Source: a virus
Reading direction: 5' to 3' (one strand)
Length of the DNA: 37,371 nucleotides
IMG/VR virus record: IMGVR_UViG_3300030419_001248
Coordinates: 1-37,371 of that record
Positions 19,431-36,428 of the stretch are shown piece after piece. A program made the translations under genes and the position numbers. Within the stretch, counting starts at the first letter, position 1; every line of letters starts with the position of its first letter. The notes below the pieces were generated by a model. It did not search any database, was not told the DNA's origin, and saw nothing but the letters and a program-made list of their open reading frames with translations.

Positions 19431-19448
19431 GGGGGGCTAACGCCCCCC
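19431..19448 (+). terminator. GC-rich hairpin with TAAC loop after first early gene
   Basis: GGGGGGC-TAAC-GCCCCCC is a perfect 7-bp, all-GC stem with the recurring TAAC loop, nine bases after the stop codon. There is no T-run behind it, so it may stabilise a 3' end or reduce read-through rather than act as a classic intrinsic terminator. Confidence 0.55.
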
Positions 19449-19519
19449 AAGTTCTAAAAAACCAATTGGTGTCCCTGTAACACCCATGACAGACGAAGAA
19501 CTTGAAAGGAGTTACTTCT

Positions 19520-19827: not shown

Positions 19828-19929
19828 ATGAAATACACCTGCTTAGATAAATGTAAGAATAATCAAAGCGGTTCACATTACATAGACTATGGACGATGTC
19901 TATGGTGCGATGTAAAATGTGACTGCTGA
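19828..19929 (+). CDS. Cysteine-rich zinc-binding-like peptide (33 aa)
   Basis: MKYTCLDKCKNNQSG... ends RCLWCDVKCDC. Cysteines are spaced C-x3-C, C-x2-C, then C-x-C, consistent with binding one zinc ion. The ATG follows the previous TAA with no gap. This is one of several tiny Cys-rich proteins in the window. It immediately precedes the first switch-like leader. Confidence 0.45.
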   Translation: MKYTCLDKCKNNQSGSHYIDYGRCLWCDVKCDC

Positions 19930-19937
19930 ATAAAATA

Positions 19938-20106
19938 AAGCTATCTATTAGTAAGAGTTAAGAACTAGCCCTGTTGCTTAACCACTGAAAGTAGGTAGCT
20001 TGTAGCACATAATGAGGTAATGGTTGGTAACAATGGTAACCTTATTTCGGCTTGCACTTAAATAAGGTATGTGTAATTGTGTGTTACAAGCTATCTATTA
20101 AGGAGG
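19938..20106 (+). promoter_or_regulatory. Switch-like RNA leader, copy A
   Basis: The central strand (19991-20009) can pair over 19 positions with 20080-20098 (three G-U pairs, no mismatch), ending two bases before the AAGGAGGG RBS of the next gene. An upstream strand (19938-19947) pairs over 10 positions with 19992-20001, so it competes with the 3' half of the long helix. Nested hairpins are GTTAAG/CTTAAC in the upstream loop and ACCTTATTT/AAATAAGGT (20039-20047 with 20060-20068) in the inner loop. The 13 bases AAGCTATCTATTA occur at both ends (19938 and 20088). This is probably a translational control element or processed small RNA. Confidence 0.65.
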
Positions 20107-20110
20107 GTAT

Positions 20111-20278
20111 ATGAGAATAGCTATTTGTAATGAATGTCGCAAAGATAAAAGTCTTAAACAATATAAAAGAAAAACTAATACTTTTAATTGTGATTTATGT
20201 GACGCTGAAACAAAAACTAATTTTCGTATAGAATTAGAAAAATATAAAATCAAACAAAAAATATTTGATGATAATTAA
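20111..20278 (+). CDS. Small zinc-ribbon protein (55 aa)
   Basis: MRIAICNECRKDKSL... has two CxxC knuckles (C6/C9 and C27/C30: CNEC and CDLC) typical of a zinc ribbon, followed by a basic helical tail. AAGGAGGG is spaced correctly before the ATG and directly abuts leader copy A. It may be a nucleic-acid or host-protein binding factor; no specific function can be assigned. Confidence 0.6.
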   Translation: MRIAICNECRKDKSLKQYKRKTNTFNCDLCDAETKTNFRIELEKYKIKQKIFDDN

Positions 20279-20281
20279 ACT

Positions 20282-20490
20282 AAGTTATCTATCTATTAGG
20301 TAGGTAGCTTGTAATCTATAACTTGACAATAATTGCAGGTGGCCAACATCTAGGCGTTTAGCTTTGTATGAAAAAAGATTAACTAGATTAGAAATGACTG
20401 CCCATCGTAAAAAGGAATGGATAACAGTTGGATAAGGACTTGGGTTAGAGTCCCAATTAGTTGTAGGTTACAAGCTATTTATAAAGGAGG
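20282..20490 (+). promoter_or_regulatory. Switch-like RNA leader, copy B
   Basis: The central strand 20301-20322 pairs with 20460-20481 over 22 positions without mismatch (four G-U). The 3' strand ends three bases before the AAGGAGG RBS (20484-20490). An upstream strand 20282-20291 pairs with 20301-20310 in a 9-base-loop hairpin. The inner loop is about 137 bases and carries a GGACT/AGTCC or, alternatively, TTGGG/CCCAA hairpin (20436-20456). A TTGACA at 20323-20328 lacks a convincing -10. Confidence 0.65.
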
Positions 20491-20494
20491 ATAT

Positions 20495-20722
20495 ATGGCA
20501 CAAATGAAAGCTATACAATTGGAGTATCAAGAACTACTTGACCAATTAACAGCTTCACAAAAGAATGACATATTAATGTTCATGTTAATGGATTTAAATA
20601 TGTGGAGTAAAAATGAAGATGTCCTTGAAAGAATTAAAGGACATTCAGCAATGCTATTAGAAATGTTGATATATAATATTAACAAGAAGATAGCTATAAA
20701 TAATATGGGAGAGGAACAATAA
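20495..20722 (+). CDS. Small helical protein, unknown (75 aa)
   Basis: MAQMKAIQLEYQELLDQLTA... is mostly helical, with several Met and Leu residues, and ends NNMGEEQ. The start at 20495 is chosen because AAGGAGG of leader B precedes it; the open frame further upstream is non-coding leader. Its stop overlaps the next ATG (TAATG). No family was recognised. Confidence 0.55.
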   Translation: MAQMKAIQLEYQELLDQLTASQKNDILMFMLMDLNMWSKNEDVLERIKGHSAMLLEMLIYNINKKIAINNMGEEQ

Positions 20723-20898
20723 TGGTTGACTATACCGAAAAAGAAAAAGATTGGGAAGACTACAATCAACACACAGTAAATGTAGATATAGCAGATACTT
20801 TAGTTCGCATCCAAGATATATTACAAACACATCAGAAGATGATAGAACTTGTTGCAAAATATGTTGGTATGCCTGTTGAGATTGAAGAGGAAGAATAA
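20722..20898 (+). CDS. Small acidic helical protein, unknown (58 aa)
   Basis: MVDYTEKEKDWEDYNQHTVN... then ADTLVRIQDILQTHQKMIELVAKYVG and an acidic tail EIEEEE. The central helix looks amphipathic, suggesting oligomerisation. Start and stop both form TAATG junctions with the neighbouring genes, which supports its being translated. Confidence 0.55.
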   Translation: MVDYTEKEKDWEDYNQHTVNVDIADTLVRIQDILQTHQKMIELVAKYVGMPVEIEEEE

Positions 20899-20990
20899 TG
20901 TGTAATTGCACAAATAAAGGTACATTCACAGTACATTATTGTCATATAAAGAAAGAGAGGAATAATGTCAGGACCAGATATGGATTATGA
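20898..20990 (+). CDS. Cysteine-containing micro-protein (30 aa)
   Basis: MCNCTNKGTFTVHYCHIKKE... contains C-x-C and a third Cys next to His residues, a plausible metal site. Its ATG overlaps the upstream stop (TAATG). Its end overlaps the start of the next gene, whose RBS (AGAGAGG) lies inside it. The evidence is the junction and the Cys pattern; it could merely couple translation. Confidence 0.35.
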   Translation: MCNCTNKGTFTVHYCHIKKERNNVRTRYGL

Positions 20991-21207
20991 ATTTTCAGAT
21001 GAATTATATGTATATAAGAACACAAACAAGAGACAATATACACAAGATTTAACTGTCACATTCACTTATCCTGAAGAAATGACAGAAGAAGAAATAACAG
21101 ATAATATACATAAGGTTATAGAAAAAGCTGGGAAAAATAAGAAATTTATTAGCTATAGCCTTGATATGTTAGAAGTATGGGAGCCAGACTTTGATATCCC
21201 TGAATGA
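20965..21207 (+). CDS. Small acidic protein, unknown (80 aa)
   Basis: MSGPDMDYEFSDELYVYKNT... alternates strands and helices (DLTVTFTYPEEMTEEEITDNIHKVIEKAGKNKK) and ends with an acidic, hydrophobic tail. It has the look of a small alpha/beta domain. AGAGAGG precedes the ATG. It overlaps the Cys-rich micro-gene at its start and the zinc-ribbon gene at its end, within a tight cluster. Confidence 0.5.
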   Translation: MSGPDMDYEFSDELYVYKNTNKRQYTQDLTVTFTYPEEMTEEEITDNIHKVIEKAGKNKKFISYSLDMLEVWEPDFDIPE

Positions 21208-21445
21208 ACCACATAATTTATTAGATGAATGGACCATGATGTTTACACCTAAGTGTATACATTGTGGAGATACAGGTTATGTAAGAGTAAAAAGAGTAGA
21301 TGAATCTACTTGGAAATACACATCAAGATATCTTAGACCATTAGTTCAGGATTTGTTTCATTATATTGATAGAGATTTAAGAGAACAAATAATGACAGGA
21401 ACCCATCCTAAATGTTTCATTGAAATGTTTGGGGAAGAAGAATGA
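21191..21445 (+). CDS. Small protein with zinc-knuckle-like motif (84 aa)
   Basis: CIHCG near residue 22 and a later HPKC could together bind zinc; the middle is basic and aromatic (TWKYTSRYLRPL). The likely start is TTG at 21191, with GGGAG seven bases upstream and a 17-base overlap with the previous gene. The alternative ATG at 21236 has no RBS. The stop overlaps the next start (ATGA). The function is unknown. Confidence 0.5.
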   Translation: MISLNEPHNLLDEWTMMFTPKCIHCGDTGYVRVKRVDESTWKYTSRYLRPLVQDLFHYIDRDLREQIMTGTHPKCFIEMFGEEE

Positions 21446-21654
21446 ACTTCATTAAAAAGAAATTAAAGGAAAGAGAAATAGAAAAATCTTTAATAGCTTT
21501 ACATGAAGAAAGCAAAAAAGAATTTTGCACATGTGGACATGAACTTCAATTTGATTATGATGAACCACATTTGTGGTGGTGTAATAAATGCAAAGCAGTT
21601 TATCAGGATTCTGAAATAACTGGTGCTGGTAGCATTTATTTTTACGGCACATAA
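21442..21654 (+). CDS. Zinc-ribbon protein (70 aa)
   Basis: A basic N-terminal helix (MNFIKKKLKEREIEKSLIAL) is followed by CTCG and WWCNKCKAVYQ: a CxC plus CxxC arrangement fitting a zinc ribbon. It is the last gene of the small cluster before leader copy C. A transcription- or nuclease-related role is possible but not shown. Confidence 0.55.
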   Translation: MNFIKKKLKEREIEKSLIALHEESKKEFCTCGHELQFDYDEPHLWWCNKCKAVYQDSEITGAGSIYFYGT

Positions 21655-21676
21655 GCACTAATCCCAGCAGGATAGT

Positions 21677-21878
21677 AGCTATCAACAATACTTTCCCCTA
21701 AGTATGTACGATGTTGATAGCTTGTAGCACATGGATATATCTCTAATAGCGTGCTGTTAGAGCAGTAGACATTATGTCATATATCATTGTTTTGGAACTT
21801 GAACCATTTTCCAATGATATCACTCACTTATAATGTAAGTATTATTTGTGTGTTACAAGCTATTAATAGAGAGAGGAG
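21677..21878 (+). promoter_or_regulatory. Switch-like RNA leader, copy C
   Basis: The central strand 21712-21733 pairs with 21847-21868 over 22 positions without mismatch (five G-U). The upstream strand 21677-21687 forms a perfect 11-bp Watson-Crick helix with 21712-21722 and encloses ATACTT/AAGTAT (21688-21693 with 21700-21705). The inner loop holds CTCTAA/TTAGAG and ATATCATTG/CAATGATAT (21781-21789 with 21812-21820). The RBS AGGAG (21874-21878) follows the 3' strand closely. The upstream and central strands have changed together relative to copies A and B. Confidence 0.65.
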
Positions 21879-21883
21879 TGATA

Positions 21884-22462
21884 ATGGCAGAAGAGGAAAA
21901 CTGTGATTGTGGAAATGAACATAGTGATGAAAAATCTATGTTCGCTGAACATGAATCAGTTGAATTAGTAAGTAAAGGAAGATATAAGTATCATGTTATA
22001 TGTACTTACTTGAATAAAGCAGTAAATAATGATTTATTTGCATCAAGAGTAGCACATATAGATGCACCATCATTAACTACTAGATATGTAGTTGAAGCAA
22101 ACAATGCACAACAAGCAATTCAGTTAGCTTTAGAACTAGATAGATATAGAAAGATGGAAGTATTAACAGGATTCTTTAAAATTCTTAGTAAAAAGAATCT
22201 AAATGACACAAACGCACCAGAAGGGTTAGAATTTAGCTTTGAGGTAGTGAGTGATTTTAGAGAATTTTTACTACATGAAGAAGTGTTTCATAAATTCTAT
22301 ATGGCAGAGCCAACTGCTATACAATGTGTGTTAGCTGATAATGATGAGTTAATGCAAAATGCAGCTATGTCAAATACTGTAGAATATATGGACCATATGG
22401 GAGAACATCTTGCTAAAGATGTAGAAGAATGGTTAGGTAAACGTGACGATTCAGAAGAGTAA
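21884..22462 (+). CDS. Acidic early protein, unknown (192 aa)
   Basis: MAEEENCDCGNEHSDEKSMF... starts with a short C-x-C segment, then an alpha/beta-like domain (GRYKYHVICTYLNKAV; TTRYVVEANNAQQAIQLALELDRYRK) and an acidic C-terminus (EEWLGKRDDSEE). The chosen ATG has AGGAG of leader C six bases upstream; the open frame before it is leader. It is the largest gene directly behind one of the switch-like leaders. No family was recognised. Confidence 0.55.
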   Translation: MAEEENCDCGNEHSDEKSMFAEHESVELVSKGRYKYHVICTYLNKAVNNDLFASRVAHIDAPSLTTRYVVEANNAQQAIQLALELDRYRKMEVLTGFFKILSKKNLNDTNAPEGLEFSFEVVSDFREFLLHEEVFHKFYMAEPTAIQCVLADNDELMQNAAMSNTVEYMDHMGEHLAKDVEEWLGKRDDSEE

Positions 22463-25215: not shown

Positions 25216-25454
25216 TGGATATAAAAGATATGCTAATAGAAGCAGAGCATGGAATGAAAGGAAACTATGTCGAAAGTAAAATTACTCCAGATGCAGAACC
25301 TTTCTGGATTGCTTTAAAAAACAGGGTAGTAAAAGAGAAGGTACCTATGAGACCTTCAGTTGTATGTAGGTTATTGCGTGAGAACTATGATATTCATATT
25401 TCTGATAGTGCAATGACTAGATATCTTAAACTATTGATGCAAAATAATGACTGA
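25215..25454 (+). CDS. Small HTH-like protein (79 aa)
   Basis: After a short N-terminal helix (MDIKDMLIEAEHGMKG) the C-terminal half reads as a helix-turn-helix: EKVPMRPSVVCRLLRENYDI then ISDSAMTRYLKLLMQ. It would be DNA-binding, perhaps a regulator of the phosphoesterase/recombination genes that follow. It is apparently leaderless and overlaps the next gene by eight bases. The HTH call is by eye; no specific family was recognised. Confidence 0.6.
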   Translation: MDIKDMLIEAEHGMKGNYVESKITPDAEPFWIALKNRVVKEKVPMRPSVVCRLLRENYDIHISDSAMTRYLKLLMQNND

Positions 25455-26502
25455 TAAAATAGATAAACTCTTAGCAGAAGCAGAGAGTAAACAAATTCAG
25501 GACTTAAAAAAAGATAATTTAAGATTATTAAAGCAACTAGATAAGGCAAAGAATAAAAAAGAAGATATGATAAATGCAGTATATGATGCTGTAAATGTCA
25601 ATCTTAAACTGTGGGATAAACCAAAGATACCTAAGCCAAAGAATATTAAGAAAAGTAAAGATGAAGAGATAGCAATAGCTATACTCTCTGATATTCAATT
25701 AGCTAAGGTAACACCTGATTACAACACAGAAGTAGCAGAAGAACGTGTCATAAAGTACGCTAATAAGATAGTTGACTTAGCTAATATACAAAGACAAGTA
25801 CATACAGTTAATAAATGTGCCGTCTTTGCAGCTGGCGACATCATAGAAGGCGAACTTATATTCCCAGGACAGTCACATCTAATTGATTCAAGCTTATATA
25901 AGCAAGTAACAGTTGATGGTCCTAGAATAATGACACAATTCTTTGACATATTACTTGCTAATTTCGATGAAGTAGATGTTCATTGGGTAATCGGAAACCA
26001 TGGTCACTTAGGTGGCAGGTCCCGCAAGGATTATCATCCAGATAGTAACGCTGACAGAATGCTAGGAAGTATTATGTCAATGATATATAGAGATGAGAAA
26101 AGAATAAAATGGACTATACCAGACAGTACAGGAGACAATCATTGGTTTGATATTGCTGATTTAGGACCTAAATCTAGGTTCTTTATATGGCATGGAGACA
26201 ATGTAAGAGGCTTTAACGGCTTTCCATGGTACGGATTTGGTAAAAAACTACAAGGTTGGAAGACATTAGCTGCTAATGGGTTAATGCCTGACTTTGATTA
26301 TGCTATAGCTGGACACTTTCATACACCTACAACAATGTATCTTAATGATATTAGGCTTTGGGTTAATGGAAGTACTGAAAGTTATAACACATATGCATTA
26401 GAACAGTTAGCAAGTATGGGTAGACCATGTCAATGGTTACTATTTTGTAGGCCTGAAAGTGGCGTAACTGCAGAATATCTTGTTAAACTAGATGATGTAT
26501 AG
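25447..26502 (+). CDS. Calcineurin-like metallophosphoesterase (351 aa)
   Basis: Predicted di-metal phosphoesterase or nuclease. The motif ladder is present in order: SDIQ (81-84, with Gln in place of the usual His of D-x-H), GD (130-131), GNH (183-185), WHGD (248-251) and GHFH (289-292). An N-terminal coiled-coil extension (about 1-50, Lys/Glu-rich) precedes the catalytic domain. Phages carry such enzymes near replication and recombination genes, where they may act as Mre11/SbcD-like nucleases, though the substrate is unknown. No SbcC-like ATPase is visible. A Rad52-like annealing protein lies downstream in the same strand block. Confidence 0.8.
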   Translation: MTDKIDKLLAEAESKQIQDLKKDNLRLLKQLDKAKNKKEDMINAVYDAVNVNLKLWDKPKIPKPKNIKKSKDEEIAIAILSDIQLAKVTPDYNTEVAEERVIKYANKIVDLANIQRQVHTVNKCAVFAAGDIIEGELIFPGQSHLIDSSLYKQVTVDGPRIMTQFFDILLANFDEVDVHWVIGNHGHLGGRSRKDYHPDSNADRMLGSIMSMIYRDEKRIKWTIPDSTGDNHWFDIADLGPKSRFFIWHGDNVRGFNGFPWYGFGKKLQGWKTLAANGLMPDFDYAIAGHFHTPTTMYLNDIRLWVNGSTESYNTYALEQLASMGRPCQWLLFCRPESGVTAEYLVKLDDV

Positions 26503-26762: not shown

Positions 26763-27305
26763 ATGGTAGAAATAGATACCAATAAATTGCTATCCCCATT
26801 TCCATCTGATTTAGTGCGTAAAGCACCAGCAGGTAAGTTTGGGGACTATGTACCACACGCTAACTATGTAGAAAGACTACGTGATAGTGGTGTTACTTAC
26901 AGTTGGCACTGTGAACCAGTATATGGAAGAGTAGACGGGGTTAAAAGAATAGTTGGTGCTAAAGGTACTATAACTATAGAAGGTATGGGTTCATATGATG
27001 GATTCGGAGACGTAGATACCTTCAAATTAACTAATGATAAATTCAACGATGGAAGTAATCTAAAAGACGCAGAAAGTGATGCATTTAAGCGTGCATGTAT
27101 GCGATTTGGATTAGGCATTGAATTATGGAGTGGTTCTACACAGACTGAAGAAGAAGCTTCAGCTGCAAAAGGTAGAGCAGCAGCATATTCTGATAATGTA
27201 AAAGTAGAAAAAGTTGATATGCGTAAGAAAGAAAATAAACCTACAAAAGAAGATGTTGAACGTATGAACAGCATCATGGATAGTATTGTAGGCGAAGATG
27301 GCTAA
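26763..27305 (+). CDS. Rad52-like single-strand annealing protein (180 aa)
   Basis: Recombinase expected to bind ssDNA and anneal complementary strands during phage recombination or replication. Recognised features: YVPHANYVERLRD (29-41), YSWHCEPVYGRVDG (46-59), a Gly-rich strand ITIEGMGSYDGFG, then KDAESDAFKRACMRFGLGIELW (101-122), the signature block of the Rad52/Sak-type family. The C-terminal 55 residues are charged and probably flexible. AAAAGGAG precedes the ATG. It follows a terminator, so it likely has its own promoter, and it overlaps the next gene by eight bases. Confidence 0.78.
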   Translation: MVEIDTNKLLSPFPSDLVRKAPAGKFGDYVPHANYVERLRDSGVTYSWHCEPVYGRVDGVKRIVGAKGTITIEGMGSYDGFGDVDTFKLTNDKFNDGSNLKDAESDAFKRACMRFGLGIELWSGSTQTEEEASAAKGRAAAYSDNVKVEKVDMRKKENKPTKEDVERMNSIMDSIVGEDG

Positions 27306-34238: not shown

Positions 34239-34428
34239 TATCTTTATCCTTTCTAAACCCTATGGTAAGTAACCATATGGCTAATGTAATTAAAGTCGCA
34301 AGACCTGTAACCTGTTGAGCTGAACCTGTAAGAGTAAGCGTAGCAATAACTAAACCTACTAAAGTCCAACTAAGATTTAAAGTTTCTTTAATTATGGTAA
34401 TAAACCAATCCCATATCTTTTTAAACAT
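34216..34428 (-). CDS. Holin-like two-span membrane protein (70 aa)
   Basis: Two hydrophobic helices (LSWTLVGLVIATLTLTG and GLATLITLAIWLLTIGF) are separated by a short polar turn, with an amphipathic Trp-rich N-terminus and a basic C-terminal tail (RKDKDNVKKSSR), the classic class II holin layout. It lies just upstream of the DUF5675-like enzyme and overlaps the acidic secreted protein gene by one base. Together with the r1t-like holin it makes two holin candidates in one block. Confidence 0.6.
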   Translation of the reverse strand: MFKKIWDWFITIIKETLNLSWTLVGLVIATLTLTGSAQQVTGLATLITLAIWLLTIGFRKDKDNVKKSSR

Positions 34429-36428
34429 TATGATTTCCTCATTATAAATGCTGCCATACTAGCTATTCTAGTCAAAATTACTGGGACTACAACTTCTTGA
34501 GCTTTTTCCTTTTGGTCATTAGTCATGTCAGAACTTATGTCACTTATATTTATCTCTTGTATATTTATATCAGTTAAAGTTTCTATAGGATTTTCAATAA
34601 ACTCTTCAAACTGTACTTCTGTAACAACATCAGCAAGGGTATAGTTCTCTACATCTTTATTTTCTACAGCTCTTTCAACATATTCTTCAACAGCAGTAGC
34701 AACTGATTCATCTTCTTTAACAGTTTCAGCGATAATCTCAACATCTTCAGCTTCTACTTGTAATACTTCAGCAACAACTTCAACCTGTTCTTCAGTTAAG
34801 TCTTCTATTTCTTCAATAGCTTCTTCAACTACAGCCTGTACTATCTCCTGTGTTTCCTCTGTGGCTTCGGATAGATTCTGTACACCAATATCATTAACTT
34901 CTTCTAAAACTTCAACTACTTCTTCAGTAGTAACTTCTTCTATAACAATATCTTCAATGACTTCTTCTACTTCTGCAACCTCTTCCTCAACCATCTCTTC
35001 AGAAAGAACTTCTTCTCCATCTTCTGTATCGAATATATTAAGTACTTCGAATACAGTTTCTTCAATAGGTTCTTCATCTTCCAGTATCTCAATGACATCA
35101 TCAAATACCTCTTCTTCAATCTCTTCTTCAATAAGTTCATCTTGTACTTCCTTTAAATCTTCTAATACATCTTCTTCTTTAGGTGGGAATAAATCATTAG
35201 ATATAAATATATCTATTAAATCTATATCTTCTTCAATTATAATTACTTCTTCTTCAAAGACATCAAGTTCTTCAATGTATTCTTCTACTTGAAGTATTGT
35301 CTCGATAAACTCTTTTGCTTCCTCTTCAGTTTCAAACTCATATATTTCAATCTCCTCTGTAAGTTCAAGGGCTTTAGCATCAATCTCCATTTGCTTTTCA
35401 AGTTCAAGTATTTCTTCTTCAGTAAGCTCAATAAATTCTTCATCTTCATATTCATCTGCCACAATGAGTACCATATCATCATCTTCAAAAAACTCTTCTC
35501 CGATTTCTTCATCTATAATTTCTTCAGTAAAATCACAATCACCACGTTCCAAAGCAGCGTCAGTAATATAACACCCATATAAATCTTCATTATTAGCACG
35601 TTCCTTATCTCTATCAATAGTACCATCATTCTGTTCTTTTTCAGTATAAGTAACTTCTTCATCACCAATAACTAAAGTTACATTAGTACGAGCTTCTCTT
35701 TCAGCACGCTCTTCATTAGTTTCGTTGTAACCAGTTTCAGCCATATTATCTTCCATTTCAATAGCTTCTTGTATTTCCATTTGGATAATTTCTTGTTGGA
35801 TAATAGCTTCTTCTTCTTCACGTTCACCACGTTCTTCATCAGTTTCTGATATACCATAAGAAGCAAAGTTAGCCTGGCGTTGTACATCTAAAGGATTAAG
35901 AGTTGTAGTAGTAGTGGTAGTAGTATCATATTTAATTGATATATCATCTACCAATGACCAATCATTAATAGTAATAACAAAACTATCTATAAATTTATTA
36001 GCTGTTTCTTTAACAGAGTAAACTATATCTTCATACATAGTTGTACTGTTTAAACCACTTTGTGCATCTATTGTATTTGATTGTGTAGTTTCATCATTAT
36101 GTGTGTACTCAACACTACCTTGATTATTAACAGCACCTATAGTAAAACCTACTTCATAGACATCATGTTCTGTAGGTAATGTAAATTCATAATCATTAGA
36201 TGCACCACCATGTTTCATATACTCTAGTTCTATATGATGACCATCCATACCATAAGAACCTGACCAAGTATTATCTATCTTTACTAAGTTATTGTTTTCA
36301 GTTGGAGGTACTACAATATCAGTAGTTTGTTCTCCATCATCAAAGGTTTCTATTTCTTCTACTTCTTCTGCGTATACAGGAGGTATGGGTAAAGCAAGAA
36401 AAAATGCTAATACTAATCTAAACAGCAC
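34428..36428 (-). CDS. Secreted, extremely acidic protein with N-terminal signal peptide (666 aa)
   Basis: It starts at GTG with a clear signal peptide (MLFRLVLAFFLALPIPPVYA, cleavage expected after AYA). Residues about 45-165 look like a beta-rich, lectin- or adhesin-type domain, followed by a run of threonines, then about 450 residues dominated by Glu, Asp, Val and Ile. The C-terminus is hydrophobic and then basic (VVVPVILTRIASMAAFIMRKS), perhaps a tail anchor. This fits an envelope-displayed or exported protein, possibly for superinfection exclusion, host-surface change or lysis; none is proven. The nearest strong RBS (GGAGG) is farther upstream than ideal, so start or coupling to preceding micro-frames is uncertain. 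Confidence 0.55.
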   Translation of the reverse strand: MLFRLVLAFFLALPIPPVYAEEVEEIETFDDGEQTTDIVVPPTENNNLVKIDNTWSGSYGMDGHHIELEYMKHGGASNDYEFTLPTEHDVYEVGFTIGAVNNQGSVEYTHNDETTQSNTIDAQSGLNSTTMYEDIVYSVKETANKFIDSFVITINDWSLVDDISIKYDTTTTTTTTLNPLDVQRQANFASYGISETDEERGEREEEEAIIQQEIIQMEIQEAIEMEDNMAETGYNETNEERAEREARTNVTLVIGDEEVTYTEKEQNDGTIDRDKERANNEDLYGCYITDAALERGDCDFTEEIIDEEIGEEFFEDDDMVLIVADEYEDEEFIELTEEEILELEKQMEIDAKALELTEEIEIYEFETEEEAKEFIETILQVEEYIEELDVFEEEVIIIEEDIDLIDIFISNDLFPPKEEDVLEDLKEVQDELIEEEIEEEVFDDVIEILEDEEPIEETVFEVLNIFDTEDGEEVLSEEMVEEEVAEVEEVIEDIVIEEVTTEEVVEVLEEVNDIGVQNLSEATEETQEIVQAVVEEAIEEIEDLTEEQVEVVAEVLQVEAEDVEIIAETVKEDESVATAVEEYVERAVENKDVENYTLADVVTEVQFEEFIENPIETLTDINIQEINISDISSDMTNDQKEKAQEVVVPVILTRIASMAAFIMRKS

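Follow-up and report, generated by a model that had tools for sequence, protein, structure and literature searches.

The leaders of early genes in one clade of uncultured marine phages contain a family of small RNA units, each ordered as a competitor strand (a), a linker hairpin, a strand B, a variable cassette and a strand C, in which B and C pair around the cassette and the cassette is exchanged as a block; both the architecture and the exchange are, in our judgement, hardly in doubt. The family comprises 311 distinct units on 174 contigs, three of them in the window, by which we mean the whole stretch of DNA that was analysed (37,371 bases, 32.5% G+C, from a virus record of 39,220 bases). 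The contigs are metagenomic and the conclusions rest on comparative sequence analysis; some sets of units were chosen by sequence pattern, and the key tests of covariation, carriage and exchange used selections that did not presuppose the outcome.

An initial annotation of the window had described three leaders in which a central strand pairs with a 3' strand over 19, 22 and 22 positions. All three lie where it placed them, and the uninterrupted B:C helices, with G-U pairs allowed, extend to 24 bp in unit 1 (19990-20013/20076-20099), 24 bp in unit 2 (20300-20323/20459-20482) and 26 bp in unit 3 (21712-21737/21843-21868). No local helix of the window, on either strand, is stronger than these in our helix search, and the only other one that is long and strong is a cross-pairing of units 1 and 2; the minus strand has no helix at the B:C threshold, while about 1.7 helices per strand reach it, just or better, in shuffled sequence. 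The upstream strand said to pair with the 5' half of the central strand is present in all three leaders (Table 1). Unit 3 has GTTGATAGC in B in place of GTAGGTAGC, and its upstream strand is altered to GCTATCAAC and its 3' strand to GCTATTAAT in step with B, so that both alternative helices are preserved. The inner loops had been described as differing completely, and the cassettes of units 1-3 indeed bear no relation to one another. Elsewhere in the window, a strong terminator-like hairpin (GGGGGGCGTTAGCCCCCC, 19431-19449) with a T-rich tail on the minus strand sits between the terminase and the early region, and a gene on the minus strand (34428-36428) encodes a 666-aa protein with many imperfect TTCTTC-type repeats (acidic, low-complexity stretches), which has no PHROG match.

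Table 1. Features of the three RNA units and associated genes in the window.
Feature	Position	Strand	Remarks
Unit 1, competitor strand a, GCTATCTAT	19940-19948	+	Complementary to 5' half of B; starts about 10 nt past the stop codon of a small ORF (19828-19930)
Unit 1, linker hairpin, AGTAAGAG..CCCTGTT..ACTGAA family	19949-19990	+	Alignment of 43 sequences, 5/5 stem pairs covary
Unit 1, strand B, 22 nt	19991-20012	+	From helix search
Unit 1, cassette, structured	20013-20076	+	Kin to cassettes in a few other contigs
Unit 1, strand C	20077-20098	+	3' end 3 nt ahead of the Shine-Dalgarno sequence of gene 20111
55-aa early ORF, interval of units 1-2	20111-20278	+	Missing there in the closest relative, L216
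Unit 2, competitor strand a, GTTATCTAT	20284-20292	+	6 nt past a stop codon
Unit 2, strand B	20300-20321	+	Inner half GTAATCTATA, unlike units 1 and 3
Unit 2, cassette	20322-20460	+	Contains T-arm-like hairpin TTGGG-TTAGAGT-CCCAA
Unit 2, strand C	20461-20482	+	Compensatory to unit 2 B
75-aa early gene after unit 2	20495-20722	+	Homologues elsewhere follow units with other cassettes
Unit 3, competitor strand a, GCTATCAAC	21678-21686	+	Covaries with unit 3 B
Unit 3, strand B, GTTGATAGC..	21713-21734	+	
Unit 3, cassette	21735-21845	+	
Unit 3, strand C	21846-21867	+	Directly ahead of the Shine-Dalgarno sequence of gene 21884
192-aa early gene after unit 3	21884-22462	+	Several homologues in other phages
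Calcineurin-like exonuclease	25447-26502		
Single-strand annealing protein	26763-27305		

The two-strand pattern of the units matches 116 IMG/VR viral contigs, where by our own estimate about 0.1 would be expected in the collection, and further patterns add about 95 loci. Carriage was also determined among relatives sampled by the ATPase gene alone, i.e., the 66 with enough upstream DNA, picked without using the element: 49 have a stringent unit (shuffled DNA has none), and in 8 of the remaining 17 a unit with a shorter helix can still be recognised, which makes 57 carriers in all. Most units are 0.7-2.8 kb away from the ATPase gene, on its upstream side. The AT-richness of the genome could favour a chance or low-complexity artefact, yet with these counts, no match in the shuffled control and covariation in both the B:C helix and the linker hairpin, such an origin is vanishingly improbable.

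Clade-wide genes are the terminase, an AAA+ ATPase, the calcineurin-like exonuclease and the single-strand annealing protein, with about 40-95% amino-acid identity. No DNA match to the units was found in 50,697 records of cultured phages, and 84,980 cellular genomes contained a single matching contig (L183, PAEL01000115.1), which is binned in a 'Gammaproteobacteria' MAG, bears a unit and an early gene of the phage clade, and is probably a phage contig inside the bin. Since the nearest cultured relative of the exonuclease belongs to Streptomyces phage Dagobah (42.9%) and those of the terminase to Streptomyces phages (27-30%), our guess from these similarities is that the host may be an actinobacterium.

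The helix formed by B and C, which we call the socket, has a fixed size. Across the units, B:C pairing is 0.93-1.00 within an interval of 22 bp and about 0.35-0.4 just outside it, a boundary that is sharp except for one frayed position on the inner side, and this helix is preserved across more than a dozen sequences by compensatory change. In a test that left the inner half unselected, we located B by no more than its outer 9 nt and took as its partner the first strand resembling a that followed downstream. Of the inner halves obtained, 27 distinct ones depart from the common TTGTA type, and these were 85-96% paired over the first ten positions; shuffled inner halves were 40-61% paired at the seven most variable positions. 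An unbiased helix search also returned sockets of equal size and different sequence, such as GTAGGTAGCTCGTACTACA and TAGATAGCGTGGTGTGTA, at L124 174-258, L055 1301-1386, L060, L213, L008 467-547, L049 768-850 and others.

The upstream strand had been proposed to form a competing helix, and this is borne out across the family: strand a is complementary to B at 9 of 9 positions in 166 of 224 units, where about 5 would be expected; its competition for the 5' half of B is genuine and conserved. The outer 9 bp of B would thus sit in either of two helices, a:B or B:C. Opposite two G's of B, strand C has U (wobble) in 162 and 172 of 195 units, whereas strand a is Watson-Crick at the same G's in 106 and 79 of them, which means that the outer part of B:C is held weak. 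Computed free energies give B:C a median advantage of 3.1 kcal/mol over a:B, and a:B is never favoured by more than 2 kcal/mol. Units occur singly or in arrays alternating as a-B-a-B-a, in which each C doubles as the a of the next unit, and up to five units may stand ahead of one gene.

These properties could belong to a cis-acting translational or coupling switch, in which a terminating ribosome would cover a, B would shift to C and the standby space at the ribosome-binding site (RBS) would change, the cassettes being interchangeable folding cores. Such a switch would fit the two conserved and mutually exclusive helices, the two states within a few kcal/mol of one another, the U's kept in C where a more often has C, and the first strand a, which in 60 of 149 arrays follows an upstream stop codon by 0-20 nt. 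It needs neither more than 140 cassette families nor wholesale exchange between phages that are 99% identical, and arrays of up to five units ahead of one gene also speak against it. So does the predicted fold of the leaders, where the Shine-Dalgarno sequence is 0.66 unpaired, compared with 0.51 in other genes of the same phages (p = 4e-5). A plain switch that hides the RBS is weakened by this, and we think the coupling switch unlikely, if still deserving of serious attention. Here the initial annotation has to be divided: its RNA family with conserved competing helices stands, while the hiding of the RBS, as helices that could expose or hinder it had implied, is not supported, given the Shine-Dalgarno sequence predicted to be more open and the median preference of about 3 kcal/mol for B:C. 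In 105 of the 312 units with a called ORF (about a third) the unit directly precedes an RBS, which suits a cis role and counts against the explanation that we prefer below.

The orientation of the units follows that of the early genes: 160 of 163 lie on their strand, and as three positions are detectable on both strands, this may account for the three exceptions. Among hairpins with four-base loops, GNRA loops make up 28 of 117 in units and 113 of 3,205 in control DNA, and only 4 are seen when the units are read antisense; UGCA loops are likewise frequent (7/117 vs 6/3,205), as are T-loop-like loops among those of seven bases (8/115 vs 64/3,494). The shared orientation and the GNRA enrichment on the sense strand argue that the unit acts as RNA. 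The commonest linker hairpin is represented by 43 distinct sequences, including that of unit 1, for which RNAalifold gives the a:B helix and, further in, a stem of five pairs, each of them changed on both sides. The covariation score is 0.387 vs 0.182 for shuffled alignments, and the former value is attained in none of 500 shuffles. Covariation in homologues had been named as the check for the initial annotation, and compensatory change is present in socket and linker hairpin alike. The AGUA and GAA strands that flank the linker stem resemble a bulged-G (loop E) motif, a putative assignment on our part; if it holds, a:B is a real helix and not a mere possibility.

Cassettes are very diverse. 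We distinguished 274 of them in 146 families, 83 of which are singletons, without relation between families, and the Chao1 estimate is about 260 families. Among the 17 families with at least four members, 8 show two-sided pair changes with 97-100% of cells paired, which indicates that the cassette folds are under selection. Modules of 38 cassettes are also present in linkers at the a:B position, and some cassettes have a common inner sub-frame (AGATAGAAC..TCTCAGACT) around differing cores. The cassette is not tied to the gene behind it, as one downstream family of 11 members, including a gene of the window, follows 8 different cassette families, and 45 downstream gene families are seen in total. 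Protein-coding cassettes were rejected (lengths are not multiples of three, and the sense frame is open in only 17 of 311 units), and so was a tRNA reading, as ARAGORN finds none although some cassettes hold T-arm-like hairpins. Palindromic loops were also considered as a general kissing signal, and only UGCA-type tetraloops stood out. Fully palindromic hairpins capped by UGCA (CTTTCTGCAGAAAG, ACTTATTGCAATAAGT) occur in many loci (e.g., L277 4980) with covarying stems and an odds ratio of 34 vs control DNA; a dimer contact is possible. A further long hairpin family (ATATGTAGGTCATA..) is present in the same phages (L026 3411-3521, minus strand; L047 754-867), where it came up as a weak micro-RNA-like match in Rfam.

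The initial annotation, drawn from one genome, contained neither interchangeable cassettes nor their fast exchange, which become visible between closely related phages. Three phages from three samples (L278, L280 and L281) are 97.3-98.4% identical over 3.1-8.2 kb, and in their alignment identity drops to 0.37-0.52 in a single stretch of about 50 nt that coincides exactly with the cassette. Similarly, L193 and L200 share 99.1% identity across 5,146 nt but have unrelated cassettes; between their socket helices a compensatory change from C-G to U-A is seen. Further near-identical phages from different samples with a wholly different cassette are L276/L283 and L277/L279/L282. In-register pairs taken from different loci were compared where the flanks agreed at 93% or more; there are 13 such pairs, and in 7 of them the two cassettes are unrelated, a share that is inflated by the merging of identical contigs ahead of the pair count. 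The converse is seen in 19 pairs that have letter-identical cassettes (at least 40 nt) in unrelated flanks. Misassembly at the repeated socket strands could have made some of the swaps, and it is unlikely as a general cause because the same cassettes recur across samples and the flanks are clean.

The closest relative of the window that we found, L216 (ATPase 92% identical), is identical to it over the first 75 nt of unit 1 and then has a different cassette, whose 3' socket runs straight into a homologue of the gene behind unit 2 of the window. The sockets are thus the borders at which cassettes and, at times, a small gene between units recombine, and the units may also serve the gain and loss of small early genes. 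The 55-aa ORF of the window is missing at L216 3554-3830, where two units are fused. Block exchange at the socket, and units that flank an early gene present in one phage and absent in another, would also be expected of a DNA-level feature, either a recombination hotspot or selfish non-coding cassettes homing into sockets, with RNA folding incidental. We consider this improbable, given the strand bias of 160:3, the G-U pairs confined to one strand, the GNRA loops seen in the sense orientation only, and the compensatory change in the socket even where its sequence is completely different.

Comparison with known systems supports the absence of a recognised family in the initial annotation. Rfam 15 gave no match at the gathering score in the window and 12 loci, and nothing meaningful in 17 more loci in a permissive search up to E=2; two weak micro-RNA-like hits fell on other long hairpins, not on the units. 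The drum and skipping-rope RNAs, which had been put forward for comparison, do not match either, unless they are absent from Rfam 15. Literature searches of open-licence papers found no description of such a system, and we know of no RNA system with wholesale cassette swapping inside a shared helix clamp. In a riboswitch, one conserved aptamer precedes functionally related genes. The units resemble a riboswitch with its expression platform in having three strands that make two mutually exclusive helices adjoining the RBS, whereas the would-be aptamer varies freely before the same gene family (the 11 genes with 8 cassette families), so that one conserved aptamer is not found.

Type III toxin-antitoxin loci combine tandem, near-identical RNA repeats (ToxI) with a ToxN-like toxin next to them. 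Like these loci, the units form arrays of small folded RNAs that might act in trans; however, the unit cassettes are unrelated and not tandem copies, no common protein follows them, and the neighbouring genes of the window gave no PHROG or Pfam match to a toxin. Integron attC sites are hairpins with a GTTRRRY / RYYYAAC core, used by an integrase. Exchange at conserved folded borders is common to both, but the cassettes of the units are non-coding, lie inside the helix rather than beside it and have folding evidence that points to RNA; by inspection, the GTTRRRY core is absent from strand C (GTTACAAG). GOLLD, ROOL and other ornate bacterial and phage RNAs are elaborate non-coding structures, partly phage-associated and with modular domains (PMC12286853). 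The units are likewise elaborately structured non-coding RNA; GOLLD and ROOL each have a single conserved large fold with an Rfam model, whereas the units are small, swappable, located in early leaders and without an Rfam match. The units are partly a two-state leader and partly a cassette-exchange system, without the tested defining features of a riboswitch, a type III antitoxin or attC, and their novelty is the combination of exchangeable folded RNA cassettes with a covarying helix socket.

The RNase III signals between the early genes of T7-type phages are irregular hairpins. They share with the units long helices between small early genes and an open RBS thereafter, and differ in having neither exchangeable structured inserts nor a conserved competitor strand. 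About two turns of double-stranded RNA, as RNase III uses, are provided by the 22-bp helix with its sharp ends. The units might accordingly be read as RNase III processing sites or 5' stabilisers of early mRNAs with inert spacers for cassettes; the exact two-turn helix whatever its sequence, the position between small early genes and the RBS predicted to be open all agree with such sites. For inert spacers, conserved loops, GNRA loops and compensatory pairs in the cassettes would be superfluous, and as judged from these sequence features we find this reading quite unlikely.

The best explanation overall, to which we would give a little under an even chance, is that of exchangeable RNA cassettes on a switchable socket, with a ligand or decoy role and under diversifying selection. 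The two-turn B:C helix holds the folded cassette, and the cassette is traded whole, up to the boundary that the socket sets. We propose that the socket strands act as short homology arms for recombination, perhaps by the annealing protein and the exonuclease that the phages themselves encode. The cassettes themselves may be RNA ligands or decoys expressed early, a suggestion from sequence towards which we lean somewhat less than away; they would target a factor of the host or of a competitor that differs between hosts, which would put diversifying selection on cassette identity. We infer that change of cassette is selected for, since spacers evolving neutrally would accumulate point mutations and lose their loops and pairs, although ready recombination, and not selection, could account for the fast exchange. 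The exchange of B between a and C, together with the two-turn helix, would control presentation or release of the cassette, e.g., through RNase III processing, which could free the cassette and leave a clean mRNA with an open RBS, so that these readings can coexist.

The rapidly swapped modules of phages known to us so far are protein genes. In this clade a short RNA with a fold of its own is exchanged instead, bounded by an RNA helix that compensatory change maintains. Tentatively, the clade may run a repertoire of hundreds of exchangeable non-coding RNA effectors, with the helix as both socket and homology arm and with the RNA cassette, not a protein, as the fast-changing weapon or disguise against hosts or rival phages. 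If the cassettes are effectors, they would make up a large library of natural RNA ligands or decoys that the conflict of phages and hosts has shaped; if the function is only in cis, the units would still form a new family of RNAs, unusual for the strand exchange built into it, and would be a clean example of how RNA domains are shuffled in nature.
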